A DNA stretch of 64,000 nt from Candidatus Endonucleibacter sp. (ex Gigantidas childressi) (lineage in GTDB: Bacteria > Pseudomonadota > Gammaproteobacteria > Pseudomonadales > Endozoicomonadaceae): assembly GCA_030674875.1 (NCBI GenBank), contig JASXSU010000003.1, positions 846,076-910,075 on the forward strand, written 5' to 3'. Shown here in pieces: positions 6,976 to 59,211 of the stretch. Each line of letters begins with the position of its first letter. The first letter of the stretch is position 1. The translations under genes were made by a program, and so were the position numbers. The notes below the pieces were generated by a model, which was not told the origin of the DNA, ran no database searches, and saw only the letters and a program-made list of their open reading frames with translations.

Positions 6976-7099
6976 AAATACGACAGACTAAACAAGTATT
7001 AGGTTCAAAAAAATACTTGTAGTATTCAATAAAATATATGCCATCTGGGCTTTAAGATACTATATTTTAGCTTTGCCCATGTTCTTTGTTAGTGACCAT

Positions 7100-7640
7100 C
7101 TTGTTATTAAAGATGTGAGGTCGTTACCCTCCTTGCCAGCATAGTTGTCGCTTCTTCTGACTTCTCTAACTTAAACAGGGGGTGGGGTCAGAGAGCGATC
7201 AATTCCACGCTATCCAGAAGAGTTCAGAGTTCATAATTCAGAAAATGATGCCACCCATAAAGAACGCTTTAATGCTGAGTACAGTCTGATAATGTGTTAC
7301 CAGACAGGCGTAAAAACTCCTACAGGCCAGAACCTAGCAACAAGTTTTCTGAATCTGAACGTTAGATGATTATTGAAATCAGTAACAGTGCTCGTTTCAA
7401 GAGTCTTCCTCTCAGGCAAGCTGTGCCCATACTGACGGATGAGGGGTACTTGGCGTATGAAAAAATATTTCACACGGTGTTGATGAAGTCGATAGGCAGC
7501 ACTATATAGGTCGGGCTGCTCGCTCAAGCCGTCACATACCAACCTCTTATTGCGGCACCGGACCTAATTAGGTCTGGTCATGGGATATAGCATTTTTGCT
7601 CTCTTCTATTCGTGGCTAGCTTTGTTATCTGCATCTGGTT
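7100..7640 (+). pseudogene. IS3-family transposase (OrfB) remnant
   Basis: The plus strand near 7300-7620 reads, with stops and frame breaks, as an IS3-type OrfB N-terminal half: YRPEPSNKFSESER, then MIIEISNSARFKSLPLRQAVPIL, DEG.YLAYEKIFHTVL, and PDLI.VWSWDIAFL. The last corresponds to the PNQVWSWDITYL motif preceding the first catalytic Asp. The upstream 100-200 bases resemble 60770-60900, so both loci descend from one repeated element. No intact ORF remains. Confidence 0.6.
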
Positions 7641-7970
7641 ATAGACATCTACAGTCGTAGAACTGTTGCATTGTAAGTTCATCAAACTAAATGGTAACGG
7701 GTATATCTAGTGCCTGTTTGATTGTGTGAAGTCAGCAGGCTATGATGATATAGCTTTACAGTGTATCATCAGGTGTGCCAATTGTTGTGGGTGTTTAGGA
7801 CGTGTTCATTTTTGTATATCTAGGTGTGTCTGGGTACATTGTTCTGGTTGAATAAACCAGTATGCTAAAAGAGAAAAATATTTTAAAGTGCAGTGTTAGA
7901 CTCTGTACGTAAAGTTACTTTAAAGGCTTGTGATATGATGTTCTCGGCAGGGTTAGATGGGGGAGGGGTG
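7641..7970. other. Gap before the channel gene, no gene seen
   Basis: About 330 bases, AT-rich and without a recognisable coding frame. The right edge carries GGGGGAGGGG (7960-7968), a strong Shine-Dalgarno-like tract placed for a start near 7975-7985, where the open frame contains no ATG, GTG or TTG. Confidence 0.35.
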
Positions 7971-8028
7971 ACTTATAAAAAATATATATAAATTTTATAA
8001 TGATCATCTGTTAAAGATAAGCTGGTTA

Positions 8029-9024
8029 GTGCTAACGACAATATTGTTTCTGCATTTTTCTTTCAGTTGGCTAGCATTAGTTGTCGCTGGTGAAGAGGTT
8101 TTAGTGCAGCCTATTGACTGGATCTATTTTTATGTGACGACAGCTACAACCATTGGCTATGGAGATTTTAGTCCTGTAACTAATGTCGGCAAGTTATTGT
8201 CAGCAGTCATCGTTATGCCTGGTGCTGTGCTGTTGTTTGCAGCATTTCTGGGAAAAGTATCTGCGTTATTTATTGGTGTTTGGAGAAAAGGAATGCAGGG
8301 AGAAATTGATTATTCTCAACTGAAAGACCACATAGTTATCCTTGGCTGGCATCCAGAAAAAACTAGTCGTATGGTGCAACTGATTTTTGGTGATGTGCGA
8401 GGGCAAAAAAGAGATGTAGTACTGTGTACTTCTGAAAATGTGGAAAACCCATTCCCGAATATCGTTCGTTTTGTAAAAGGAACAAGATTATTAGATAAGG
8501 ATGTTTTCCGTAGGTCTGCACTTGAACTGGCAGGTAGAGTCATTATCTTTCAAGAGACGGATGATCAGACATTGACTGCTTGCTTGTCTGTATGTGCCAC
8601 GAAAACAACGGCTCATATTGTTGCTTGGTTCGAGGACTCTAAAATGGCTGGGCTTGTGCAGAGCCACTGCCCCCAGGTGGAGTGTCATACAAGTCTTTCC
8701 GTGGACTTACTGGTTCGCTCAGCTCAAGATCCTGGTTCTTCAAGGTTACAGTCTCAGCTTCTGTCTACGTTGGAAGGCCCCACTCTATTCAGTGTTCAGG
8801 TTCCTGATGATTTTGAGGGAACAACATTCAGCTGTTTGTTGGGAGTTATGAAGCTAAAACATGAAGCGATTGCTATGGGCCTTGCGGAGACAGTTATGGG
8901 TAAAGATTTGTTGTTGAATCCTCATGGTGATCATAGGGTCAAAGCTGGTCAGCTAATTTATTTTATAGCTGCAGAGAGGGTAGGGAAATCAGAAGTAGCC
9001 TGGAATGATATGGTTGCAGGATAG
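8029..9024 (+). CDS. Potassium channel with RCK/TrkA-N domain
   Basis: A 331-residue ion channel subunit. Two transmembrane segments (residues about 1-22 and 60-88) flank a pore loop with the K+ selectivity filter TIGYGDF (about residue 41). A TrkA-N/RCK Rossmann domain (HIVILGWHPEKTSRMV, about residue 102) and a C-terminal regulatory part follow. RCK channels conduct K+ and are gated by nucleotides or ions. The GTG at 8029 is the first standard start, but the frame is open upstream to 7972 and encodes a plausible extension (KFYNDHLLKISWLV) as in homologues. A strong ribosome binding site also sits at 7962-7968. The true start may therefore be a non-standard codon, or the start codon may be lost. 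Confidence 0.8.
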   Translation: MLTTILFLHFSFSWLALVVAGEEVLVQPIDWIYFYVTTATTIGYGDFSPVTNVGKLLSAVIVMPGAVLLFAAFLGKVSALFIGVWRKGMQGEIDYSQLKDHIVILGWHPEKTSRMVQLIFGDVRGQKRDVVLCTSENVENPFPNIVRFVKGTRLLDKDVFRRSALELAGRVIIFQETDDQTLTACLSVCATKTTAHIVAWFEDSKMAGLVQSHCPQVECHTSLSVDLLVRSAQDPGSSRLQSQLLSTLEGPTLFSVQVPDDFEGTTFSCLLGVMKLKHEAIAMGLAETVMGKDLLLNPHGDHRVKAGQLIYFIAAERVGKSEVAWNDMVAG

Positions 9025-14022: not shown

Positions 14023-16518
14023 ATGCGTAGATTAATGTATGGTGCATGTTTTTTTCTGGGATTAAGCTGTTTTACTACTATTGCTTATTGCAGTAAAGAT
14101 CACAATGTTAAAACTTTCAGAGAACACAAAATAGAAGTGCAGACTAATGGTTATAGTGTAAATCAATTTGATTTTCATAAGGAGGTATTATGTATAGGAG
14201 AAGAAGATATTAATGTACTTTTTAATTTTTTAATAAAGAACACAACATCAGTAATAAAATCAGATAAAAATGAAATGATGTTTGTATCAGGCCATAAATT
14301 AGATCTTACTAAACAAGTGGTTGTGAAATATACAGAGGGCGAGTCTAAGTGTTTGGATGAAGCTTTATCGTATAATATGAAAGCAATTTTTAATAAAATG
14401 GCTAACAGAATTGTTGATATAACATCAAACAACGAAGCAATGCATATGTGTATAAATTTTGATCTGAGTTATGAATGTTCAGATAATAATGATAGTCTAG
14501 GCTGGCATTTAGATGTTAATTGTGGAGATATACCTAGGCATCTTATTTTTTGTGTATTGCGATCATCATTTGACAAGCAGAAAACAGCGCATTCCGCCCT
14601 GAAAATTGGATTTGTTGCTAATAAGGTGAAGAACTATTTTAGTACAGGTTATGTCACACGAGATACTAGTTGTTTTTTAACAAAGAATTGTAGAGATGAA
14701 GATGAAATACTAGATCAGATTTTAACGGATAAAAAAATTCAATCTGCAGCTAGCATAGATAACATTGGAGGTGCTGGATATATTATCGACCAATATTATA
14801 GTGATGCTCGTGACACATCTATTGTGCATTGTATGGAAAAAAGAGGTAGCGATGAAGGTAGACTAACTCTAACGTGTCACTGTTTCTGCTACGATAATTC
14901 AAATGATTTGGATGGATTTATAAAAACAAATGTCATCCAAGACCAGGAAGAAAATACATTAAATGAAAAAAGTCATGAAGAAATTGACATAAATGATTTT
15001 GATGATGCACTTCTTTGTGATCGAGCTGTTCTATTAAAAGCTTTGCAGTGCTTATTAAAAATTGCTGATCAAAATGGTTGTCATGATCTTATCGATACCT
15101 TGAAACTCCGTGAGGTTCCTTGTGATTTGAATAAAAAAAATGTTGCTGAAACTCTGCAGTGTGCAGGTTTTAATGAAGATTGTGTTATCAGAGCTCTGAA
15201 GGAATTCATTGCTAGCCATAAAGGTACTTGTGAGTTAGGAGAAGATCTGCTCTCTCTTGCAATGCCATTTTGTAATAATAAACTCATCGAACTCTTGGTA
15301 AACTCTGAAGTGGATGTGAACAGTCTTGATGCGGATAAAAACACAGCGCTGTATAAGGCAGTGATGCATGGTAATATTGGCATCGTCAATATCCTGCTGA
15401 ACGCCGGCGCGAAAGTCGAGAGTATTAACGTGCTTAGGCGCAGTAAGCGTATGGAGGGTATTGCCACAGGTTTTGGTTGTACTCATAAAAATGTAACCGC
15501 GATGTATATGGCTATTTTATGTAATAATATTAGGATGATCAAAGTATTGCTTGACCATAAGGCTAGCCCTAATTTTCATGCTGAACATATGTATACACCA
15601 TTACAAAATGCTGTGAATGATGCTTCTGTTCCTATCATTAAATTACTGCTGCAGTTTGGTGCGGATATAGGTGAAGTAGACACATCTCAGGATAATGTAG
15701 TGCAACGCACAATTTGGTATCGTTCGAAGGCTAAATTTGTTATAGCTCTAATTGATGGGGCGGATAAAGATTTCATTAATGTGGTAGATAGATATGGCTT
15801 CTCACTACTGCAAAGAGCCATTTTAAATGGATCTACGGAATTAATTCAGATCTTAATAAATAAAGGAGCTGATTTTAAATATATTAGTCAGGATGGAGAT
15901 AGCTTGATGCATATAGCACTTAGTCTTCAATGTTTGGGTGTAACAGGTGAAAATGCATTTTCTATATTGAAGATATTGATAGATGCGGGATCAGATGTAA
16001 ATTGTCGCAATCAAAAAGGTTTTACTCCACTGATGCTTGCGGTTAGCCATGGGTGTTTTTTATTGGATCAAAAAATAAAAAGACGTGTCATCAGTTTGCT
16101 AGTGAGAAGTGGTGCATGTCTCAATATGTTGGACAATAAACAGAATACAGCTTTGCACCATATAGCTAATCTAAGCTCAGATAACGCTTGTGATATTGCC
16201 TTGTTTCTGCTGAAACATGGTGCTAGAAGTGATATTAAAAACATTGATAATGAGACAGCAGAAGAGCTTTCAGTTAATACTTTAAAAGAGATACTATCTA
16301 ACGCTCATGTTGTTCCGCCGACGCTGAAAACTCTTACTCAAAACCGTATCATAAAACAGCTTAGTGAGAATAGCAAGGAGACTAAACTCCAAAAACTTCG
16401 TGAGATACTCATTACTTTGCAGGTACCTGAAATACTTATTGGAGAGATGCTTAGAACTTGGACACGCTGGATTGATATAATTAGACCTTTGCACGATTGT
16501 TATTCTACCAGCTGGTGA
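14023..16518 (+). CDS. Exported ankyrin-repeat protein
   Basis: An 831-residue protein with a Sec signal peptide (residues 1-24, cleaved about AYCS). A cysteine-rich N-terminal region of about 380 residues has no family I recognise, and at least seven ankyrin-type repeats run from about residue 407 to 765 (for example NTALYKAVMHGNIGIVNILLNAGAKV and GFTPLMLAVSHG). Ankyrin proteins of host-associated bacteria often bind host proteins, so a secreted role is a reasonable inference, not a demonstration. The last 11 residues (RPLHDCYSTSW) are encoded by the left end of a 139-bp miniature element, so the native C-terminus has been replaced. Lower-case features such as codon use look AT-rich like the neighbours. 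Confidence 0.8.
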   Translation: MRRLMYGACFFLGLSCFTTIAYCSKDHNVKTFREHKIEVQTNGYSVNQFDFHKEVLCIGEEDINVLFNFLIKNTTSVIKSDKNEMMFVSGHKLDLTKQVVVKYTEGESKCLDEALSYNMKAIFNKMANRIVDITSNNEAMHMCINFDLSYECSDNNDSLGWHLDVNCGDIPRHLIFCVLRSSFDKQKTAHSALKIGFVANKVKNYFSTGYVTRDTSCFLTKNCRDEDEILDQILTDKKIQSAASIDNIGGAGYIIDQYYSDARDTSIVHCMEKRGSDEGRLTLTCHCFCYDNSNDLDGFIKTNVIQDQEENTLNEKSHEEIDINDFDDALLCDRAVLLKALQCLLKIADQNGCHDLIDTLKLREVPCDLNKKNVAETLQCAGFNEDCVIRALKEFIASHKGTCELGEDLLSLAMPFCNNKLIELLVNSEVDVNSLDADKNTALYKAVMHGNIGIVNILLNAGAKVESINVLRRSKRMEGIATGFGCTHKNVTAMYMAILCNNIRMIKVLLDHKASPNFHAEHMYTPLQNAVNDASVPIIKLLLQFGADIGEVDTSQDNVVQRTIWYRSKAKFVIALIDGADKDFINVVDRYGFSLLQRAILNGSTELIQILINKGADFKYISQDGDSLMHIALSLQCLGVTGENAFSILKILIDAGSDVNCRNQKGFTPLMLAVSHGCFLLDQKIKRRVISLLVRSGACLNMLDNKQNTALHHIANLSSDNACDIALFLLKHGARSDIKNIDNETAEELSVNTLKEILSNAHVVPPTLKTLTQNRIIKQLSENSKETKLQKLREILITLQVPEILIGEMLRTWTRWIDIIRPLHDCYSTSW

Positions 16519-19996: not shown

Positions 19997-21164
19997 CTAT
20001 GTACGGGACAAAACATTTAGCAGATCTAAAAAAGTAGTTTGATCATTTTCTGCACAGCTGTTTTTGAGTACTCGTCTAAGCCTATCCAAGCCTAATCGAA
20101 ACAGACTCTTGGCTGGACGGTAATGCTTGTTCAGCGGCAATTGACTTTCATGCCCATAACACCAGTGCCCTATTAGTAGGCGCCACACAACAGCAATCGT
20201 CAGTAGCCCCATCAGTTTATTCATACGGTCAAGGTTCGTCATATGTGTGGACTCAAAATCAAAGCCCCGACGTTTTAGATTGCCAAACATGGTTTCAATA
20301 CTCCAGCGCTTACTATAGTCATCTATTGTTGTCTGGTTTTTTAGTAGCTACGACGTCAATAATCTTTTCAGGGTTCGACGGGCTGCAATATAGAGAGGTA
20401 CTCCAGATATTTTCTTTTTGCTATGCCACGTTACTGTTTGATTGACACTGACGCCTCTGCATAGCTTTCCAATGGCAATCTTTTTGCTTCGATGTTCCAC
20501 CACATTGTTGCTTTTAACCAGAATCCTGCATGACAGTTTGTTTTGACGTAACCAGTTTAACCATTCGTAGCCTATAAACTCACGATCTGCCAGAAGGTTA
20601 TCAATTCTCTTTGTGGGAATGAGATTTAGTACACGCTCCATTACCGCTATGCGTTCATCGGTATTGGAGTTTCCTCCTTTTTTGTTAAGACACTCCCAAA
20701 CAATGGGAGTTGAGGTTCCTTGCCAAGCAAATGATACCGCCAGATAGTTGGCGTTTTTGGAGCCATGCTTCCAGTTGGTTCTATCCATGCACAGGGTAAA
20801 GCGATCCATGTCCAGGCAGCTCAGAATCAGCTCATCTAGCTGCTCAAAACTGTAGTCATAGTCAGCTAAAAATCGCTTTATACGGCATAACTGGATTCGC
20901 TGTCTGCCTTCGTCTACATGGTACAAGTTAGTGGAATGCCTACGCAGTAAGGCCGTTACAAGGTGTGCAATGAAGGTGATCCTAGCTTGATGCAGGGGTA
21001 GATAAGCCTTAAACTTCTTGGTCAATGAGCTGACGTCTTTCATGTACAGCAACCATAACCTATTCTGGGGTAAAAGACCGTGCAGGTTACCTTGTCTGAG
21101 AGTCACGTCATACTAAATTATGTATTAAAAATCAAGGTCTTCAGGTTTTTTGTCCAGTACATAG
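19997..21164 (-). mobile_element. IS4-family element, copy 2, frameshifted
   Basis: The ends CTATGTACGGGACAAAA and TTTTGTCCAGTACATAG enclose a transposase in two frames. 20348-21106 carries MDRTNWKHGSKNANYLAV, NSNTDERIAVMERVL and LLADREFIGYEW; 19997-20290 carries MFGNLKRRGFDF and HYRPAKSLFRLGLDRL. Comparison with copy 1 shows loss of one base in the segment after ARRTLKRLL, which breaks the catalytic C-terminal third from the rest. It has no miniature element and is the empty-site reference for copy 1. Confidence 0.85.
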
Positions 21165-44542: not shown

Positions 44543-46021
44543 TTAGAGGATTGTACATGCACCACTTTTCTTTTGTATGGAGTTAATGGGTGGTGATTTT
44601 TTGCTTATCAACATCCAGATTTGTGCGGTAGAATCAGTGCAGGCTGTCAGCACATGCTCATTATCAGGGCTGAACATTACAGTAGAGCATACACCACCAT
44701 GAGAAACACTAGCTTGCTCTATCCACTGACCACGGTCATCCTTCACACAAATTTTTGTCGTGTTATCTTCACCGGATGTCACTACACGCTGACTATCTGG
44801 ACTGAAACTTGCTGAATGGACACAACCTTCATGGGAAATAGAAAATGTCTCCGCCCAGCTGCCACTGTTATCCAGGCCCAAAATTTTTGCCGTGTTATCT
44901 TCACTGGCTGTCACTACACGCTGGCTATCGCGGCTGAATATTGCTGTATTAATCGCATCCCTATGTACAATACTTCCTTTCGCCTCCCAGGTGCCGGCGT
45001 CATCCCGACCCAAAAATTGTACCATGTGCTCAGAACCGTTGATTACCAGCAGCACATGCCGGCTATCGAAACTGAACATTACTGAAGTAATTTCATCACT
45101 TTGGGCAATACACCCTTTCTCGGTCCAGGTGCCATCACCATTCTGCTCCCAGACTTTTACCTTCTCCTCATTGACTGTCAGCACATACAGCGTATCAGAG
45201 CTGAACTCTATTTGAGAATACTTATCCGTACCGAAAAGATTCGTTGTTTCACTCCAGTTGCCACTGTTATCCTGCGATAAGATTTTTACCTGATCATCAT
45301 TGTCGAGATCCTGTGTCACCACATACCGAGAATCGGGGCTGATTTTTATTGAAGTGAGGATGGCTTGATGTGCAAATGTTATTTTCTCCACCCATTTGCC
45401 ATTCTCATCCTTCGCACAGATCTTTACATTGCCAGTATCATCGGCTGCCACCACATACTTACTATTAGGGCTGAACTGTGCTTTATTGACGCAATCTTCA
45501 TAAGAAATAACCCCCTTCTCGCTCCAGTTGGCGCTTTCATCCATCCCCCATATTTGTGCCTTGCAATCATCACTGGTTGTTACTACATACTGACCATCAG
45601 GGCTGAACACTGCTGAAGAGATCTCTCCTTCATGGTTAACAGTCGCTTTCTCCATCCAGTTACCACTTTCATCCATCCCCCAGATTTTTGCCGTGTTATC
45701 CTTACTGGCTGTCACCACATGCCGACCGTCAGTGCTAATCACTGCTGAAGTGATCGTTTCCTCATGGGGAATAGTCGCTTTCTCCGTCCAGATACCATTG
45801 TCATCCTGCCCCCATATTTTTGCTTGTAAACCGACGGCACTAGCGGTAAGCACATGCTTACCATCGAAGCTAAAATCTGCATAATTGACGCTGTACTGAT
45901 GGTTAATATGTCCTTTCTGTACCAGGTCGAAAGATTGAGCGCTTGCAGCAGAGGTATGAGAGACAGAAAAAGCAGCTGTAAGCACAGCTACAATAACTGA
46001 TTTAGTGCAAAATCGTATCAT
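44543..46021 (-). CDS. Exported WD40-repeat protein ending in a CaaX-like CTIL
   Basis: A 492-residue protein with signal peptide (residues 1-28, ...SHTSAASAQ) followed by about nine WD40-type blades of 45-50 residues. Each carries a S(P/x)D(S/G)xxVVTAS...AKIWGxDxxGxW pattern. Such WD40 arrays form beta-propeller scaffolds and are typically eukaryotic. The final residues are KKSGACTIL, so the chain ends in C-T-I-L, a sequence that fits the CaaX prenylation motif (X=Leu favours geranylgeranylation). Secretion and host lipidation are inference. It stands alone. Near-identical repeat units suggest recent internal duplication. Confidence 0.8.
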   Translation of the reverse strand: MIRFCTKSVIVAVLTAAFSVSHTSAASAQSFDLVQKGHINHQYSVNYADFSFDGKHVLTASAVGLQAKIWGQDDNGIWTEKATIPHEETITSAVISTDGRHVVTASKDNTAKIWGMDESGNWMEKATVNHEGEISSAVFSPDGQYVVTTSDDCKAQIWGMDESANWSEKGVISYEDCVNKAQFSPNSKYVVAADDTGNVKICAKDENGKWVEKITFAHQAILTSIKISPDSRYVVTQDLDNDDQVKILSQDNSGNWSETTNLFGTDKYSQIEFSSDTLYVLTVNEEKVKVWEQNGDGTWTEKGCIAQSDEITSVMFSFDSRHVLLVINGSEHMVQFLGRDDAGTWEAKGSIVHRDAINTAIFSRDSQRVVTASEDNTAKILGLDNSGSWAETFSISHEGCVHSASFSPDSQRVVTSGEDNTTKICVKDDRGQWIEQASVSHGGVCSTVMFSPDNEHVLTACTDSTAQIWMLISKKSPPINSIQKKSGACTIL

Positions 46022-46606: not shown

Positions 46607-46900
46607 CTATGTACGGGACAAAAAACCTGAAGACCTTGATTTTCAAAGTATAATTTAGCAAGACGTGACTCTCAGACAAGGTAACCGGCACGGTCTTTTA
46701 CCCCAGAATAGGTTATGGTTGTTGAGCATGAAAGACGCCAGTTCATTGGCTAAGAAGCTTAAGGCTTATCTACCCTTGCATTAAGCTAGGATCACCTTCA
46801 TTGCACAGTTTGTAACGGCCTTATTGCTAGCCGTTCTACTAACTTGTACCGTGTAGCCGAAGAGTTTCAGACGAAGGCAGACAGCGAGTCCTGTTATCAC
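46607..46900 (+). mobile_element. IS4-family element, left-end fragment, copy 3
   Basis: It begins CTATGTACGGGACAAAAAACC and follows the IS4 leader and N-terminus (LSMKDASSLAKKLKAYLPLH...ARITFIAQFVTALL) to about 46900, where similarity stops. It forms the left border of the cassette-bearing island, in inverted orientation to the fragment at 51920-52155. Confidence 0.75.
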
Positions 46901-46948
46901 ATATAAAATGCCGCTATCAACTGTACTACGAAAGCACCAGAACCAGCG

Positions 46949-47224
46949 ATGGTAGTAGATGGCACCTCATACTTGCCGATGGGACTGCTACTGACCGGAG
47001 CCACAGTTACTTCCATCGGTGCGGCCTGTTTTGCTTGCTCTCTTTATAAGGGATTTCAAGAAGGTAAACGTGGCAGATCTCTCGCTTTGCATCCCTTCAC
47101 ATCTTTTGGAAGATTGTTGACTAATCGTTATCGCCAGTGTGTCTCCGGTTTTTCTCCGGTGAGTACAACGTCGAAAGAAGACAATATGAATCTTATGGAC
47201 AATATGATGACAACATCATTATAG
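46949..47224 (+). CDS. Hypothetical membrane protein fragment
   Basis: A 91-residue frame with one hydrophobic segment (LPMGLLLTGATVTSIGAACFACSLY) followed by a basic tail, like the C-terminal anchor of a larger surface protein. The frame is open some 45 bases upstream without a start. I recognise no family. It may be the remnant of a gene cut by the IS4 fragment. Confidence 0.35.
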   Translation: MVVDGTSYLPMGLLLTGATVTSIGAACFACSLYKGFQEGKRGRSLALHPFTSFGRLLTNRYRQCVSGFSPVSTTSKEDNMNLMDNMMTTSL

Positions 47225-47276
47225 GGAATCTCTATTAATGGTAAGGTAGGATTATTTATGGTGTATCGGTAAAGAG

Positions 47277-47302
47277 TAAAAAAGGGTAGCGTCCCCTTTT
47301 TC
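47277..47302 (+). terminator. Possible Rho-independent terminator
   Basis: AAAAAGGG, a short loop, then CCCCTTTTT forms an 8-bp stem ending in T residues about 55 bases after the preceding frame. A- and T-runs on the two arms would let it act in both directions. Confidence 0.4.
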
Positions 47303-47419
47303 GGGCTCCTTTTTCGGACTATAAATCAGGATCATCTAGACCACCATGTATTGGTTGATCGTTGTGGTATTTACCCATTTATTATACTTCCATACTATTT
47401 ATTGAGGCACAATTTAGAT

Positions 47420-47516
47420 TGCTAACGCCGCAACAAGCGGACTAAAATGGTGAGTTATAATGTGTAGCGAAGCGAAACTTAACCCACCATTTTAGTCCGC
47501 TTAATTGCCTTGTTAC
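47420..47516 (-). other. Integron attC recombination site 1
   Basis: Read on the minus strand it starts GTAACAAGGCAATTAAGCGGAC and ends GTCCGCTTGTTGCGGCGTTAGC. The arms AAGCGGACTAAAATGGTG and CACCATTTTAGTCCGCTT pair almost perfectly around a central loop. This is the R''-L''...L'-R' layout of attC sites, about 97 bp. The TAA of TAACAAG is also the stop codon of the gene ending at 47513, as in typical cassettes. The attC base is recombined single-stranded by IntI; no intI is in the window. Confidence 0.85.
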
Positions 47517-48064
47517 TCCTTTATCCGCTTAATTAACGAACTCAAGTGTTGATAATTATGTTGTTTTGCAATATTACTCAATTCACCAACAACTTTATCG
47601 GATAGTTCACTTTTTCTACTATCAAAAGTTTCATTAGCCTCATATGATTGCCCAGGCGTAGTACCTACATAGTCTCCAACTCGATTGAGGTTATATGCTA
47701 TCGTTTCTAATAGTGCAGGAGGAATATGCTCTAGTTCTAGTGTATTTAGCATATCTAATTGAACAATTAAGTTTTGGTTGTAAGCGTCAAATGCACCATT
47801 AGGCTCTGCTCTTTTCCAAAGAGCGTCAAAAACGGCACTTAAAAACGATATAAAGCTAGAGATCACCGGTGAAGTGAATTTGGCTAATGTTTTCAATATA
47901 TCCAAACGAAACTTTTCATCATCAATAAATTCATCAATTACAGTGTCAGTACTCTTTTCTAACATCTTAATTATTTCATCGCGAGATTTATTATCCTGAA
48001 TGATTTTATCTGAATAATTCTTATTTTCTTTGGAAAATTCTTCAAAAAATTCATCAAGATCATT
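47513..48064 (-). pseudogene. Gene-cassette ORF, 5' end lost
   Basis: An open frame of 183 codons encodes an acidic, helical protein (NDLDEFFEEFSKENKNYSDK... to SLIKRIKE). An in-frame TAG lies immediately upstream, and the first ATG only appears at 47965 (MLEKSTDTV). The residues before that ATG look like genuine protein, so the true start was removed where the REP-like DNA begins at 48065. I recognise no family. It is the cassette attached to attC site 1. Confidence 0.55.
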
Positions 48065-48071
48065 CTAAAAT

Positions 48072-48182
48072 TATGCATTCCCACGCTCATGCGTGGGAAT
48101 GCATATCTATAGTTTCCATTGCTCACACGCCTCCAGCAACCGTCTTGCTGTGTATGCATTCCCACGCTGGAGCGTTGGAACG
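48072..48182. repeat. REP-like hairpins (CATTCCCACGCT type)
   Basis: GCATTCCCACGC-TCAT-GCGTGGGAATGC is a perfect 12-bp stem (about 48074-48101). A second unit, GCATTCCCACGCTGGAGCGTTGGAACGAG, follows at about 48155-48182. Such units are scattered in gammaproteobacterial genomes and are moved by RAYT transposases; none is present here. Confidence 0.75.
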
Positions 48183-48189
48183 AGAAAAA

Positions 48190-48357
48190 AACCCCTGGAA
48201 TTAATCAGGCATTAAACAATGCTTATTTAAAACAACAAGGGTTAGTATCGCTGCGCGATGGATGGATAAATCTTCATCATACTTAATGAAACGCCCTGTG
48301 CGGATCCGCACAGGGCGTTGTGGGGGCTGAGGGTTAGAGGCCCTTGGCTACCCGATT
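48190..48357 (+). mobile_element. Group IIC-attC intron, 3' remnant
   Basis: The plus strand reads INQALNNAYLKQQGLVSLRDGW...HHT and a stop (48284), like the end of a group II intron maturase. A domain V-like hairpin follows (GCCCTGTGCGGATCCGCACAGGGC), then GTTGTGGGGGCTGAGGGTTAG...GGCTACCCGATT. The intron end joins ATACGAATG, so the restored junction would be TTGTT|ATACG, the bottom strand of an attC start. That is the known target and opposite orientation of class C-attC introns. The 5' part and the reverse transcriptase body are gone. Confidence 0.7.
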
Positions 48358-48367
48358 ATACGAATGT

Positions 48368-48787
48368 TTATGCTGCCTCAGTTTCAACATAGTCTGCACT
48401 TTCAATTTCTCGTTTTACTCTCATTGGATCTGTAATCCATCTTATGGTCACATCGCTAGCTCCTCTACCGGTAATAATTATTGTGCCGTAACCTAAAATG
48501 CGGCCTAAAATACCTTGTTTAATAATTATTGATTCAATTGCAGATAGCTTCATTTCATATGTTTTTCTAGAAATAATACCGTGTTTATAAATTACACGTT
48601 TGTTTGTTACGCCTTGTTCGGTATTGCGCCAACCTAACCAAATTAAGATAGCTGGAATAAGCCAAACTCCCATCGTGAAAACAGCTAAAATAAAATGCAC
48701 TACAATAGCAACCTTGACCATCCAATGATGTGGAAAAGTTTGATAGATGCGCTCGCCTTTTGATAATGATTCTTCTATATATGACAT
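48368..48787 (-). CDS. bPH2 (DUF304) membrane protein, gene cassette
   Basis: A 139-residue protein. Two closely spaced membrane helices (about residues 23-52) are followed by a bacterial PH domain: TNKRVIYKHGIISRKTYEMKLSAIESIIIKQGILGRILGYGTIIITGRG is the typical bPH2 core. A GGAGGGAACC ribosome binding site precedes the ATG. The start lies about 33 bases after attC site 2, and the stop is followed at once by the intron junction that marks its own attC, so it is a complete cassette. The function of bPH2 proteins is generally unknown (envelope or stress related). Confidence 0.85.
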   Translation of the reverse strand: MSYIEESLSKGERIYQTFPHHWMVKVAIVVHFILAVFTMGVWLIPAILIWLGWRNTEQGVTNKRVIYKHGIISRKTYEMKLSAIESIIIKQGILGRILGYGTIIITGRGASDVTIRWITDPMRVKREIESADYVETEAA

Positions 48788-48819
48788 GGTTCCCTCCTTC
48801 GGGCTTAGTTAGTAAGTCG

Positions 48820-48947
48820 AATAACGCCCCATTAAGAGGCTTTTTGGACAGATAGAGATGAGGGTGACTCTACGATAAACTTCTAGAATTCACTAAACTC
48901 AAATCAACCGCTGAGTAAAAAAGTCCCTCTTGAATTTACTTGTTATG
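48820..48947 (-). other. Integron attC recombination site 2 (VCR-like length)
   Basis: On the minus strand it starts CATAACAAGTAAATTCAAGAGGGACTTTTT and ends GTCCAAAAAGCCTCTTAATGGGGCGTTATTC. The arms CAAGAGG(G)AC and GTCC...CCTCTTA pair, with a long central segment, about 128 bp in total, similar in size to Vibrio repeats. It follows the stop of the gene ending at 48958 by about 10 bases. Confidence 0.82.
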
Positions 48948-48957
48948 TGATGGGAGA

Positions 48958-49935
48958 TTATAGTTTAAAGACCTTTTCCCTATTCTTAGCTAATTCTTTG
49001 TACATATCATCAAAAAGAGTAGAGTATCGAGATTTAATTGTAAAAGTATTATTATTAATAAGTTTATCTCTAAATATATCCATTCCTTTACCAATTTGAA
49101 TTACATGATTATCAAAACACATCATTCTATCATGAGCTTCTGTCTTAAAGATTTTATCTTTACAAAGTGATAGTTCAATTTCAAATTTATGTTTAGAGAA
49201 GTATGGTTTATTAGTAAAACTATTAATATAAGACTTTATTCTTGTGAAATCTACATCTATATTTGTACTGTGTGTATCACATGCACAAAAAATATGTATA
49301 GTAAATTTTTTTTCATACTTTGAAAGGCTTTCAATAAGGAGTTCAAGTGAAGTTTTTAAACCATAACGTAAATCACGTTCTATGTTTAATGCCATGTATC
49401 TGTCTAATATAGTAATAGTTGATGTGTACATGGCTAAACCTTCAAACTTATTTTTCCAAATATCATTAAACTCATCACCAGATTTAATGTCTTTTTCACT
49501 AATACATTTACTTATATTAAAGTTTATAGACTCATTTATATTTGTTGGAGATAAAATTTCTAAAGTATTATTATCAACAGGTAATGATTTTTCTTCAAAT
49601 AATTCTTGGTAATCAATTGTCAAAATTCCAGTTGTTATATTTTTTGTATAAAACAACATCTCAAATTCTTTTATTCCACTTAGGGAGGAAAGCAATGGGT
49701 CGCTAATATTAATTTCAGTCTTTTTAAATTTATCTGATGTTAAAGCTGTGATCCATTTTTGTTTATATTTAATTGGTATGTTATCAATAGCAATGCGCAT
49801 TCCATTTATATTGTTTTGGCATATTGCTAGACAACCATATTTAGACCAAGTCTCTAGAATTACACTATTAGTAATTGGTAAATTTAAAGACTCATCAGAA
49901 AATAATTCCTGATCAAAATAAAATGTAGTTAACAT
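48958..49935 (-). CDS. Partner protein of the cassette ATPase, unknown family with HDR motif
   Basis: A 325-residue cytosolic-looking protein, low-GC, directly following the ATPase gene with no gap. The N-terminal half has no recognised domain. The C-terminal half has ITILDRYMALNIERDL (about residue 173), a central sheet-like IHIFCACDT and TEAHDRMMCFDNHVIQIGKGMDIF (H268-D269-R270). The DRY...HDR arrangement recalls PLD-like effector domains related to the MITD1 C-terminus; this is a weak, by-eye match. The likely role is effector or target-binding subunit acting with the ATPase. It ends 10 bases before attC site 2. Confidence 0.6.
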   Translation of the reverse strand: MLTTFYFDQELFSDESLNLPITNSVILETWSKYGCLAICQNNINGMRIAIDNIPIKYKQKWITALTSDKFKKTEINISDPLLSSLSGIKEFEMLFYTKNITTGILTIDYQELFEEKSLPVDNNTLEILSPTNINESINFNISKCISEKDIKSGDEFNDIWKNKFEGLAMYTSTITILDRYMALNIERDLRYGLKTSLELLIESLSKYEKKFTIHIFCACDTHSTNIDVDFTRIKSYINSFTNKPYFSKHKFEIELSLCKDKIFKTEAHDRMMCFDNHVIQIGKGMDIFRDKLINNNTFTIKSRYSTLFDDMYKELAKNREKVFKL

Positions 49936-51288
49936 TTATCCCCCGAATAATTCATCAAGACGTTCTTCAAAGAATCCTGTAGGCCAAGCTGTACTAAAAT
50001 CTCCATCATCATCCAAAGTTATTGGGGTAACTTGCGCGCCATTTTTACCCACATCAACATATAATACAGAAACTAAATCCTTGCTTATTTTTCCTTCTCT
50101 TATTCGTCTTTGCATCCTCAGCATTAGTGCTTCACTATGTGTTTCTATAACCCATTGATTATTATTTTTTTCTGAAACTGAATCAATAAATAAATCAGCT
50201 AGGTGGGCTTGAAGCTTTGGGTGTAAATGTATTTCAGGTTGTTCAACACAAATAAGTTTATTTTCAGAAATTATTGCATCAAAAATTATTGGTAAAACTT
50301 GACCTATTCCAAAACCTACATCCTTTGGAGTTACAACTGCACCATTCCTTAAGTCCTCAAGCTGCACAGAAATCAATTGACCTGTATTTATATCACCTAA
50401 ATCCTTCGCATCTATTAAATAAGGAATTTTGAAAGATTTTAGTGCATTATTTATTTTTTCCTTTGTTATTTTATTGGCATTAAATATATCAAGGCCTAAA
50501 TTATTTTTACCCTGCCCTTTCTGATAGTTAGTTATTGCAGGCGAGTAAAACCTTTTAGGTGAACTTCTAAGAGGGCCTAAATACTTAATTTTTTCAAAAA
50601 TAGTACTTATGTCATCAAGAACTCTATCAGTATATTCACTGAGAGGTGATTCAAGGTCAGTAACAATAGTTGGAATATTCAGATGAGACCCGATCATAAA
50701 AGACTCGGATAGCAAAGTATCTAATTCTCCCCATTTCATTCTATCATCAGTGCGAAATTTCAATCTAGATGATATCACCTTTCTTAGGCTACTTTTGTCC
50801 TGCAAATTAAAAGTTATTCCTTTTGATATTTCAGCCCCCCGTTTTAATTGATAATTAACTTTTTCATTATTTTTCTCGCCACATGAAAACTTGTAATTAC
50901 TCAATGCTGGTTTACCGTCTAATTGTTTATACTTTAACTCTAAATTACGAACATCAGAATGTGAATAAAGCATATTGTATGAATGCCTTTGCTGATAGTC
51001 TTTTGCCTTTGTATTGCTCGTATATTTTATAGAGAACAACATCTCTTTTTTCGGATTTTGACCGTGTATTAATGATTCGAACGTTCCTAGATTGATATTT
51101 TCACCCGATGTTACCAAGTAACTATCTTTGTCTTTTGCAAGTATGGTTTGTTTGAGCATCATTAGTGATTGTATTATTGAACTCTTACCAGCAGAGTTAG
51201 GTCCATAAATTAAGGTAATTGGTGAAAAAGACAATGATTGTTTTTTTGAGAACGATTTAAAATTTTCGATCTGAAACTCTGTGATCAT
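49936..51288 (-). CDS. DUF3696-type AAA ATPase (OLD/SMC-like)
   Basis: A 450-residue P-loop ATPase. Walker A GPNSAGKSS lies at 29-37 after the Rad50-like opening MITEFQIENFKSF. YLGPLRSSPKRFY is at 236-248, the ABC-signature-like DVGFGIGQVLP at 323-333, Walker B EQPEIHLHP at 349-357 and the switch ETHSE at 382-386. The C-terminus (FEERLDELF) is the DUF3696 type. No TOPRIM or other nuclease domain is fused. Single ATPases of this group work in two-gene anti-phage modules with a separate effector, and the next gene, with no spacer, fits that role. Preceded 57 bases upstream by the stop of a truncated frame. Confidence 0.85.
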   Translation of the reverse strand: MITEFQIENFKSFSKKQSLSFSPITLIYGPNSAGKSSIIQSLMMLKQTILAKDKDSYLVTSGENINLGTFESLIHGQNPKKEMLFSIKYTSNTKAKDYQQRHSYNMLYSHSDVRNLELKYKQLDGKPALSNYKFSCGEKNNEKVNYQLKRGAEISKGITFNLQDKSSLRKVISSRLKFRTDDRMKWGELDTLLSESFMIGSHLNIPTIVTDLESPLSEYTDRVLDDISTIFEKIKYLGPLRSSPKRFYSPAITNYQKGQGKNNLGLDIFNANKITKEKINNALKSFKIPYLIDAKDLGDINTGQLISVQLEDLRNGAVVTPKDVGFGIGQVLPIIFDAIISENKLICVEQPEIHLHPKLQAHLADLFIDSVSEKNNNQWVIETHSEALMLRMQRRIREGKISKDLVSVLYVDVGKNGAQVTPITLDDDGDFSTAWPTGFFEERLDELFGG

Positions 51289-51345
51289 TTTATTTCCTAT
51301 TTAAAATAGTTTGTATATTACATAGAATTGTTAAAAACTGATAAA

Positions 51346-51516
51346 TTACTTTGGACACATAACAGTATTATTAGTAGGAAACTTTCCTTCTAATTCCTCT
51401 AAAAGTTTCCGCCTATCTTCATTTTGATCTTTTGGCTTTAATCGCGAATCTCCCATTAAAATCAATATGTTATCCTGTTTTATGGATTCTGGCTTAGATA
51501 AAATAAGGAAAGTTTT
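51346..51516 (-). pseudogene. Truncated upstream gene of the ATPase operon
   Basis: A 56-codon open frame (KTFLILSKPESIKQDNILILMG... to NNTVMCPK) has protein-like composition but no start. It is cut at about 51516, just after an in-frame stop. It runs in the same direction as the ATPase gene and ends 57 bases before it, so it may be the tail of a third member of the system or of an unrelated cassette. Confidence 0.45.
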
Positions 51517-51553
51517 CTATCTAATTCTCAGTTAGTCAGGAAGCGGTACTATA

Positions 51554-51706
51554 ATGCCTATTTTTTTACCTATATTACCCAATTGGCCAACTAACACCAT
51601 TCATAAAATGCCAAAAAAAATGACTTGTCATGTCGCAGATACATATCTATGTGAGCACCAATATGGTGAGCCGTATACCTTAACTGTTGAGGATAGAGTG
51701 TTGTAA
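51554..51706 (+). CDS. Possible 50-residue protein or fragment
   Basis: Open frame MPIFLPILPNWPTNTIHKMPKK...LTVEDRVL without a ribosome binding site. No family recognised; probably a fragment. The rest of 51520-51920 shows no gene. Confidence 0.2.
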   Translation: MPIFLPILPNWPTNTIHKMPKKMTCHVADTYLCEHQYGEPYTLTVEDRVL

Positions 51707-51919
51707 AGGGGAGAGAGCTTAATACACCCAAACACACTACCGCCCTTCTATCCATATTTTAGAATACTAAGGTTGTACCGCTTTTTTTATCTCTTGCATC
51801 TAACACAGCAGGATGATAACAAAACATCACCGGGAAGTAAAAGTCAGTAGTCGTTTTTATATGTAAGACAAGCCAGTCACAATCTGCAAACATGTTAATG
51901 TCTCTTTTATTCAATCAGA

Positions 51920-52155
51920 ACATTAGTGGAACGGCTACGCAGTAAGGCCATTATAAACTGTGCAATGAAGATGATTAGAGCTTGATGCAGGCAGGTGATC
52001 TTAAGTTTCTCAGGCAATGAACTTACGTCTTTCATGTTCAACAATCATCACCTATTCTGGGATAAAAGATCGTGCAGGTTACCTTATCTGGGAGGCACCT
52101 CATACTAATTATGCCTTGAAAATAAAGAGCTTAAGGTTTTTTGTCCCGTACATAG
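51920..52155 (-). mobile_element. IS4-family element, left-end fragment, copy 4
   Basis: On the minus strand it starts CTATGTACGGGACAAAAAACC and covers about 235 bases of the IS4 leader and N-terminus. It is the mirror of the fragment at 46607-46900, and both point inwards. It forms the right border of the cassette island. Confidence 0.75.
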
Positions 52156-57234: not shown

Positions 57235-59211
57235 ATGACAGAATCTATTGGTTCTAGTGGATCAAGTAATCTAGCTCAGTCAGTTGTGCCTGGTAAGTCT
57301 ACTCAAAAATCACAAAAACATGGGCTATTTAAATATTGGACAGTAAAAGCTGTTGCGAAATGTAAAAAGATGTTGTTTCAAGTAAAAAAAACACTTAGTT
57401 CAGAGCCACGCGGTATTGATCTTAAAAAAATGACACGCGTAAGTGGTGAGGTTATTTCAGCTCCTCCTTACAAGAGTTCTGGTATGCAGGGGCAAGTGAA
57501 GATTAGGCAAAGGGAGGTAGATGAAATATTGACAAAAAGGCCTAATACTAATAATGAGTGTGAGCATCTTATACGCATGCTTGAGTCTAGGCGGGACGGT
57601 ATTCTTAGTGAGCCTTCTGGTCAAAACCAGCCAATACTGCAATCAATAAATAACCGGATTGATGTTCTTAGAGGGCGCTTGGTTAGCTCTTGTTCCAGTT
57701 ATAATGAAGGCCAGTTCAAGCTATTAAAAATAAAATCTGCCCTTGATCTGATTGAAAAAAAAGCTGTTCCTGGTATGGATGGGGTGAAATCTGAATTGAT
57801 GGCACGTATAGAAAAGCTGGATCGTGCTGCCTTGAAAGCATCTAAAACGGACCATCTGACAAAGGATAGGAGGAAGGAGCTAAAGAATTATCCGAAGATG
57901 TTGGTAAAAATGATGGCCAAAGCAGGCCTGAAAGTGACCATTAGTGATATCAAAGAGTGTTCGATTGATCTGTTGAATCGTGAGCAGTGGCATGAGATTA
58001 ATAAAGTTGGTTCTGTGGTGAGTAACGGCCAAGAGTATCATTTTAAACAGCAGTGTACGCCAGCTTGCATGATGACAGCGCGCTCAACAACAAATAAAGA
58101 TGGCTCTGACCCTAAAGAAAAAGTCGTGAATATTTTCCCAGAAGACTACCGTGGTAAGGGGGTTACAGCACACGCAATTAAAGGCACAACACATGCTTCT
58201 AATTTGTTCACGAGTCGTCTGATCAATGAGAAGACCCACAAGGAAGATTTCGCTATTGTTAGGCATGGCGTTAACTCTCCTTACGGTTTGAATCCAGGTA
58301 AGGAACGTTCTAAAGGAGCTGTTAATAGGGCGAAAGAGGTGGTTCTTGCTGGCATTAGCCTGAAGCCGGAACTCTTGGAAATGGCTTGTCAAGGAAAGAC
58401 AGTTAACTTTATGATGACATCCACCAGTTTGTTAACTCCTGATCCGTTCAGGGGGGTTTTTATGCCATTGGCGGACGAGAAGGTAATGTTGGAGGATCAG
58501 CTGGCCGCTTATAATACACTTGCTAATGAAAATCCCGTGACGCTAAATATAAGAACAGCAGATGGGACACTGCAGGAAATTCGTGTCAATCTGGAGCTTG
58601 TTCCGTTCAACTTTGGGGTGAATACGTTTGCAGTCGATGCTATTTCGGACAAGATAGGTGGATGGAAGTATTCAGACTCTATTAATGATAAGAGCTTTCA
58701 ACATTTAATTGGCTCAACTAAGCCAGGTGCAAGTCATGGCGGGATAGTTGGGCGATGGTTAGATGAAAACAAAACGCATCCTGACGCTGAAATTGTGAAA
58801 ACTTTGGTAAAACAGATAAGAGAAATATACAGCTCTAAGTCTCATAGAGCACTGGAAGGAGGTGCTTATAAGCTTCCTGCTCGGTTGATTGTTCTGACGA
58901 GGCTAATTGGCGGGGTTCCCTGCACTAATTGCAAAAGTGGTAAAGATCGAACCAGCGCGTCAGTAGGTGTAGCTGAAGCATTATTCACAGGCATTAGAAT
59001 GCATGGTGAAGTGCCAAGTTGGCATGAGGTAAGTGAGGATCAATCGCATCTTGTTAAGGAGTTTTGTTTTCAAGGTGCGCATCATGATATTCAGAGACTT
59101 AACACCGGAGTAGCGGGTTTCAAAATTGAGGACGCGGTATTTAAAGAGTATGGTATGAATGAGTCTGAAATGAACCATGCAAGAGGGTTGTCGGATATTG
59201 TGTCTAGGTGA
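57235..59211 (+). CDS. SopB/IpgD/INPP4-like phosphoinositide phosphatase, putative effector
   Basis: A 658-residue protein without signal peptide. The N-terminal 200 residues are Ser/Lys-rich and helical. The catalytic C-terminal half carries the CX5R phosphatase loop C566-K-S-G-K-D-R572 (TNCKSGKDRTSASVG), the version shared by SopB, IpgD and mammalian inositol polyphosphate 4-phosphatases, and upstream VPFNFGVNTFAVDAI, which matches the NxGVN motif of SopB. Family members are type III effectors that dephosphorylate host PI(4,5)P2 and related lipids, remodelling membranes and promoting host survival. No secretion apparatus or chaperone gene is adjacent, so delivery is inferred. Both catalytic motifs are intact. 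An IS30-B remnant follows 30 bases downstream. Confidence 0.85.
   Translation: MTESIGSSGSSNLAQSVVPGKSTQKSQKHGLFKYWTVKAVAKCKKMLFQVKKTLSSEPRGIDLKKMTRVSGEVISAPPYKSSGMQGQVKIRQREVDEILTKRPNTNNECEHLIRMLESRRDGILSEPSGQNQPILQSINNRIDVLRGRLVSSCSSYNEGQFKLLKIKSALDLIEKKAVPGMDGVKSELMARIEKLDRAALKASKTDHLTKDRRKELKNYPKMLVKMMAKAGLKVTISDIKECSIDLLNREQWHEINKVGSVVSNGQEYHFKQQCTPACMMTARSTTNKDGSDPKEKVVNIFPEDYRGKGVTAHAIKGTTHASNLFTSRLINEKTHKEDFAIVRHGVNSPYGLNPGKERSKGAVNRAKEVVLAGISLKPELLEMACQGKTVNFMMTSTSLLTPDPFRGVFMPLADEKVMLEDQLAAYNTLANENPVTLNIRTADGTLQEIRVNLELVPFNFGVNTFAVDAISDKIGGWKYSDSINDKSFQHLIGSTKPGASHGGIVGRWLDENKTHPDAEIVKTLVKQIREIYSSKSHRALEGGAYKLPARLIVLTRLIGGVPCTNCKSGKDRTSASVGVAEALFTGIRMHGEVPSWHEVSEDQSHLVKEFCFQGAHHDIQRLNTGVAGFKIEDAVFKEYGMNESEMNHARGLSDIVSR

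Follow-up and report, generated by a model that had tools for sequence, protein, structure and literature searches.

Does the gene pair on the minus strand of a 64,000-nucleotide stretch of the Candidatus Endonucleibacter sp. (ex Gigantidas childressi) genome (contig JASXSU010000003.1, positions 846,076 to 910,075; this whole stretch is called the window) encode an anti-phage system with an undescribed effector, as an earlier reading of the sequence had proposed? The pair consists of an ATPase gene and a gene for a 325-residue partner protein (Table 1). Both open reading frames (ORFs) are intact and meet at a TAA|ATG junction with 0 nt of spacer, ATPase first, which confirmed the arrangement given in the original prediction. 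By analogy with described systems, the pair is probably a two-gene anti-phage module in which the ATPase would gate abortive infection, as in PARIS, WonAB or PrrC, and in which the partner would act as a phospholipase D (PLD)-like effector.

The DRY...HDR pattern behind the guess of a PLD-like effector was located in the partner at residues 178-180 (D178-R179-Y180) and 268-270, the latter as part of H268-x-R270-x4-D275. The sole Pfam family on the partner was MIT_C, with 20.4 bits, under the gathering score of 25. Among the eight members of the partner family (type 1), MIT_C matched four at E≤10, with the window partner scoring best. MITD1 was the only PDB profile match (E = 0.19). A structure model of moderate quality had PLD structures as top fold matches and MITD1 as the closest in Foldseek; the N-terminal 133 residues were modelled with a pLDDT under 50. 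Based on the sequence profiles and the moderate model, the C-terminal half resembles an MIT_C-type domain with the PLD fold, supporting the guess. The partner matched no PADLOC or NCBIfam model at E≤1, and PADLOC matched none of eight partner proteins (six of type 1 and two of type 2, another MIT_C-like family of effectors, which has diverged and shows DPY/DPH and HxR; thresholds of E≤1, 0.01 or 0.001, depending on the scan). The word "undescribed" is therefore mostly right for the partner but not for the ATPase, whose type is known from PDC-M55A, NsnB and HEC-03B.

When 369 genomes of the class were searched for MIT_C (E≤0.001), seven matches in six genomes were obtained, six of them over the cut-off. 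The seventh, a sub-threshold PF16565 match (G211, L043), lay within the stretch of a single ABC-transporter gene and was dropped as chance. Four of the six were scanned, and all four proved to be C-terminal domains of BrxL. When the type-1 profile was aligned to the six BrxL domains, 117 columns were paired (probability 42%, E = 2.6e-4) at a score of 34.8, compared to at most 19.3 in 30 column shuffles; in this alignment, DPY is the counterpart of DRY and H(A/D)R that of HDR. The type-2 profile gave a probability of 94%, an E of 8e-8 and a score of 56.5 (at most 25.3 in 30 shuffles), and the type-2 protein L077 matched the hidden Markov model (HMM) of the BrxL MIT_C domains at 3.2e-5. In PMC12839542, 1030 of the 2913 type-1 BREX taxa having BrxL are described as carrying, at the C terminus of this protein, an "HKD-endoDNase" that shows an HRD motif; we infer that this domain is the MIT_C domain of Pfam. 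BrxL with C-terminal MIT_C and the window system have in common a PLD-like domain with H-x-R. However, this domain is fused to an AAA+ ATPase in BREX, whereas in the window it is encoded by a separate gene beside an OLD-type ATPase.

By inspection, the ATPase contains Walker A (GPNSAGKS, 29-36), signature-like (DVGFGIGQ, 323-330), Walker B (VEQPEIHLHP, 348-357) and H-loop (ETHSE, 382-386) motifs, and Pfam AAA_15 matches it at 2.6e-26. The description as a DUF3696-type ATPase with all motifs intact was thus borne out for the motifs, but the DUF3696 match itself is weak (6.8e-4; 20.2 bits, under the cut-off of 22 that the relatives at L022 and L027 pass with 22.9 and 22.1 bits). In PADLOC, 128 models match, the best being PDC-M55A (1.8e-56), NsnB (9.7e-56) and HEC-03B (7.7e-52); judged by these matches, the ATPase is of a type well represented in known and candidate systems. 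With E≤1e-20 the ATPase profile was found in 17 of 369 class genomes, and with E≤1e-30 in 28 of 388 phylum genomes; these counts are lower bounds because at most three candidates were scored per genome. The gene behind the ATPase was of type 1, type 2, HEC-03A-type, NsnC or another kind, NsnC being assigned by HMM at four loci and HEC-03A by HMM at one (L050), the other HEC-03A-type rows by eye from N-termini.

A tree was built from 30 chosen ATPases. The 18 that precede a type-1 or type-2 effector formed one clade (98/93), the eight with HEC-03A-type genes another (99/95), and the four with NsnC a third (100/100). The tree is midpoint-rooted with some long branches, leaves out L085 (HEC-03A-type), the G146 ATPase, which is partial, and ATPases whose neighbour was of another kind or not seen, and includes four sequences that deviate in composition (window, L002, L057 and L061). 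Within the first clade, L046 is the one member with a type-2 effector in a group of five (100/100) whose other rows have type 1; conversely, L029 is the one with type 1 in a group of seven (100/99) whose other rows have type 2. At least two effector exchanges are needed by this tree. Comparison of G146 with G178 at the DNA level showed a replaced effector next to a downstream DUF4236-type gene that is 89.6% identical over 473 bp, with ATPase stretches at 84% (200 bp) and 73% (275 bp). At their very ends, the L029 and L046 ATPases look matched to the effector, reading FFEES..EKF.GR with type 1 and FF.ER..EL/IF with type 2; this is firm for L029 only. The L029 tail is 60% identical to type-1 and 54% to type-2 tails, compared to 27% and 46% for the body, while L046 matches its effector in the last residues only, its whole tail being nearer to type 1 (47% vs 38%). 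Since L029 keeps the insertion after RRIRE, that insertion is independent of the effector.

Several known systems resemble the window pair. PDC-M55 was compared by its ATPase alone, where PDC-M55A as the best match is nearly tied with NsnB; the partner is unmatched in PADLOC. HEC-03 likewise combines a related ATPase with a small effector gene directly downstream, but HEC-03A is different, PIN-like by eye (with no Pfam PIN match), and its ATPases fall into a separate clade. Menshen (NsnA/B/C) has a related ATPase in NsnB; however, its ATPases also form a clade of their own and are followed by NsnC, of which there is none at the window pair. The partner matched neither NsnC nor HEC-03A in PADLOC at E≤1, and neither Pfam nor PADLOC found in it, at the same threshold, a TOPRIM domain as in the PARIS effector AriB, an HNH domain as in Septu or a UvrD-like helicase as in Gabija. 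This agrees with the earlier statement that the pair is not obviously PARIS or Septu. PARIS (AriA/AriB), which answers the anti-restriction protein Ocr, also combines an OLD-type ABC ATPase with a separate effector, as far as the accessible text of PMC12839542 goes; AriB is a TOPRIM protein, in contrast to the PLD-like window partner. The same text pairs OLD-ABC ATPases with TOPRIM, HNH, PD-(D/E)XK and PIN nucleases and, in its accessible part, lists no HKD/PLD partner. WonAB of Vibrio cholerae is described in the available portion of PMC12137116 as an OLD-type ABC ATPase with a small effector that is predicted to bind the dimerised C-terminal extensions of the ATPase; WonB is of the PD-(D/E)xK type, whereas the window partner appears PLD-like from the fold matches listed. 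Finally, PrrC is described in PMC2610378 as a backup effector tied to type I restriction-modification (R-M), silenced by the R-M system and activated by a phage anti-restriction factor. It shares with many of the loci described below the link to type I R-M, but joins a tRNA anticodon nuclease and an ABC ATPase in one protein instead of two genes. In literature searches, DUF3696 was not found together with phage and defense. A pairing of MIT_C, MITD1 or PLD with bacterial defence did not occur among the matches listed, nor did PDC-M55 and HEC-03; a 2024 "guilt-by-embedding" preprint, cited in PMC12988326, may list the pairing.

The original prediction held that the two genes belong together, and a survey of co-occurrence supported this: all seven intact type-1 relatives (L002, L022, L023, L026-L029) directly follow an ATPase of the same kind. 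The outcome named in the prediction as refuting it, homologues that never occur together, was not seen. At the junctions, the genes either overlap or lie at most a few nt apart (0 nt in both the window and G032), and the two-gene order is kept in beta- and gammaproteobacterial records. Partner matches by sequence or profile occurred in three of 57 relatives, three of 369 class, three of 37 family and one of 398 phylum genomes, each count including the own genome and those of 57 and 37 also a remnant in G019; in a collection of genome contigs, four of 39 candidate stretches held the partner. No type-1 relatives were found in viral contigs, in phages (queried with the L002 relative only) or in plasmids. 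The type-2 protein L077 matched four plasmid records, and in the three examined the pair is annotated merely as a DUF3696 or AAA-family ATPase plus a hypothetical protein. The remnant in G019 (L003) comprises about 33 C-terminal partner residues, with no ATPase in 1.5 kb upstream, and is possibly a trace of pair loss. It adjoins a NERD-type gene that by eye appears to be the same as the gene after the G032 pair. In G190, the R-M-linked pair is directly followed by a third gene (L022, 370-1377; 335 amino acids with weak Pfam matches and, by eye, two hydrophobic stretches), which was not counted as a component because none was seen behind the window pair.

G032, a member of another genus of the same family, holds a collinear pair with identities of 72% (ATPase) and 57% (partner). 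Between the two, third codon positions differ more than first and second positions (0.61 and 0.56), a purifying-type pattern, and dN is higher for the partner (0.33) than for the ATPase (0.20). Judged by these sequences, both genes look maintained. This pattern and the two-gene order conserved in beta- and gammaproteobacterial records speak against a toxin-antitoxin-like pair or passive integron cargo with no selected defence role in the host. The cassette-like setting, low GC and flanking repeat remnants described below would suit such cargo, as would the mere remnant in G019, but we consider it improbable.

Type I R-M proteins are encoded upstream of the ATPase, on the same strand, at 14 of the 18 loci having at least 2.2 kb of upstream DNA, namely L031, L027, L108, L109, L098, L099, L101, L102, L103, L105, L107 and the plasmid loci L095, L096 and L097. 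The remaining four are the window, L030, L026 and L100; five further loci (L028, L029, L032, L104 and L106) have too little upstream DNA and stand outside the 18. L027 and the three plasmids supplied the R-M query proteins, and their own R-M calls are based on Pfam (L027) and annotation (plasmids). Only HsdS was seen at L099, L101 and L103, and the L103 contig does not extend to the effector. As L098-L103 are close relatives, the 14 loci are not independent. HsdS adjoins the ATPase at eight of them, while about 1.3-3.7 kb of other sequence lies between the two at L098, L099, L101, L102, L103 and L108. As a control, Hsd within 1.5 kb was sought at other ATPase relatives and found at 0 of 28, where only 456-1,056 bp of upstream DNA was present (at least 400 bp required); the same measure gave six of 15 for MIT_C-effector loci, with the window and plasmids left out. 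At L026, the neighbours match KwaB, TIR-PNTD and class I pAgo models, the TIR/short-pAgo set being presumably SPARTA. The pair in G032 (L030) lies beside kinase genes with PD-T4-6/mad6 matches and a PDC-M21A/B pair. For the defence-module guess, it is these neighbours that supply the support: type I R-M at 14 of 18 loci, KwaB-like, TIR and short-pAgo genes at L026, and kinase and PDC-M21 genes in G032. The type I R-M locus of L027 also contains a DUF4268/PDC-S11 gene (7013-8125), placed after the pair.

The position downstream of hsdS, directly adjoining at eight of the 14 R-M loci, would also be expected if the pair were accessory to type I R-M, directly aiding or regulating the restriction enzyme, for example as extra nuclease or control subunits, and were not an abortive-infection unit. 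We regard this as unlikely: the copies in the window and G032 stand alone, the L026 copy lies beside a TIR/short-pAgo pair, and related ATPases occur in systems such as Menshen, where NsnC lies beside the ATPase. A tentative proposal, which we hold with some reserve, is that the pair guards type I restriction. In its usual place behind hsdS it would stay silent while the enzyme works, and the PLD-like effector would be fired once the enzyme is blocked by an anti-restriction protein of a phage. Effectors would be exchangeable like cartridges, with the DUF3696-like tail perhaps matching them to the ATPase, and the window copy would be one freed from the operon and now on mobile DNA.

For the two-gene anti-phage module that we favour, the following course may be envisaged. 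The ATPase would, judging from its family, form an OLD-type ABC dimer that senses infection or responds when a first-line defence, for example type I restriction, is blocked. It would then release or activate the PLD-like partner in an ATP-gated manner, perhaps via docking to the C-terminal tail; the partner would damage nucleic acid, or possibly membrane lipid, and the infected cell would be stopped. The copy in the window stands by itself, on apparently mobile DNA. In favour of this module speak the pairing of all seven intact type-1 relatives with an ATPase, the single clade of the 18 ATPases with MIT_C-like effectors, the PLD-like fold, the profile matches to BrxL, the widely kept HxR, the neighbouring defence genes and the low GC of the pair.

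Several observations weigh against this reading. The MIT_C search in the 369 genomes gave no match in the window's genome, G190 or G146, which all hold type-1 partners; the resemblance is therefore remote. Types 1 and 2 are themselves weakly alike, with a probability of 18% and an E of 0.0014 for 13 type-2 members (score of 32.4, at most 18.1 in 30 shuffles) and no signal with two type-2 members (E = 0.46). The type-1 family is rare in the class and phylum genomes counted above, and no R-M gene lies near the window and G032 copies. That the tail follows the effector fails in the window/G032 pair, where FFEER occurs with type 1, and is weak for L046. Further points concern the active site. The histidine of HxR is kept in seven of eight type-1 and 13 of 13 type-2 members and the arginine in all 21, but L029 carries R in place of H268, and the position of the HKD aspartate holds D in only two of eight type-1 members (G in five, E in one) and seven of 13 type-2 members. 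Compared with a catalytic motif of the HxK(x4)D type, the window partner has R for K, and from the sequence we are unsure of a catalytic step. In human MITD1, MIT_C is regarded as a non-catalytic membrane binder, and a binding role is therefore possible for the partner as well. The pair would then be a membrane-acting or structural module and not a nuclease module, with the partner as a non-catalytic membrane or nucleic-acid binding subunit. This alternative draws on MITD1 as the closest PDB relative by both profile and Foldseek, on the unconserved aspartate and on L029 without its histidine; the near-constant HxR is also part of the picture, and we rate the alternative as rather doubtful.

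If a two-gene module with a PLD-like effector is correct, a PLD/MIT_C effector joins the two-gene defences built on OLD ATPases, and this effector is tied to the PLD domain of BrxL and, at the fold level, to human MITD1. Because the pair so often follows type I R-M genes, known anti-restriction proteins would allow a direct test of the guard hypothesis, and the two natural effector exchanges are ready comparisons for which part of the ATPase chooses the effector.

The pair likely arrived on mobile DNA. Its GC content of 29.7% is the minimum among 309 sliding windows of the same length (40% for the 64-kb window), and the stretch holding it (46828-51938) lies between inverted repeat remnants at 46607-46827 and 51939-52155, which are about 81-88% alike. 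The genome holds at least 40 copies of this repeat, the start of which looks by eye similar to a transposase ORF at 20348-21106. The earlier claim that the pair forms one integron cassette ending at an attC site held in part. Motifs of an attC-like site (TAACAA...CAAGAGGGAC...CCTCTTAA...GGGGCGTTA) begin some 11 nt beyond the stop codon of the partner. In folding, however, this sequence did not outperform its shuffled versions (z = 0.2); it was missed in a strict scan, and no attC was recognised upstream of the ATPase as the other boundary. Judged by the motifs, a single cassette is plausible. No attC was seen by eye after the partner in G032, a blastn search of the attC-like stretch against plasmids gave no match, and no Rfam family matched the 64-kb window at gathering scores. 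A match to an integron integrase lies on another contig of the same genome (C2:76370-77089, L034); it exceeds the family cut-off, spans 239 of 315 positions and contains one in-frame stop. To its left are two weak attC-like sites, at C2:74806 and C2:63124, one being the single match of the L034 scan (0.25 on average and up to three in shuffles), the other a pattern match with two mismatches, of which the reversed control pattern also gave one.

Table 1. Positions of the gene pair and of adjoining features in the window
Feature	Position	Strand	Basis or remarks
ATPase, 450 amino acids, OLD/ABC-type, DUF3696-like C-terminal tail (about residues 401-447)	49936-51288	minus	Pfam, PADLOC, motifs, tree; proposed sensor/switch
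Partner, 325 amino acids, PLD-like (MIT_C-type) domain at about residues 140-325	48958-49935	minus	Proposed effector
36-codon ORF just upstream of ATPase	51346-51456	minus	Not counted as a component
attC-like site downstream of partner	48812-48947	minus	Motifs present; fold not better than chance
ORF, bacterial PH-domain protein	48368-48787		bPH_2 2.2e-16; next in array after pair
ORF, 150 amino acids	47513-47965		No Pfam family at E≤1; next in array
Strong attC	47423-47515	minus	17-pair helix in scan; fold z -6.6; about 1.3 kb further downstream, after next two ORFs

The 36-codon ORF is not proposed as part of the system; no counterpart was seen in the 600 bases upstream of the G032 pair. Elsewhere in the window, a 658-amino-acid ORF (57235-59211) has a CKSGKDRT motif, which we take to be reminiscent of inositol phosphatases of the SopB/IpgD type. 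By eye, an ankyrin-repeat-like ORF (14023-16518) and a WD40-like ORF (44543-46021) were also noted; ORFs of these kinds are often seen in host-associated bacteria.
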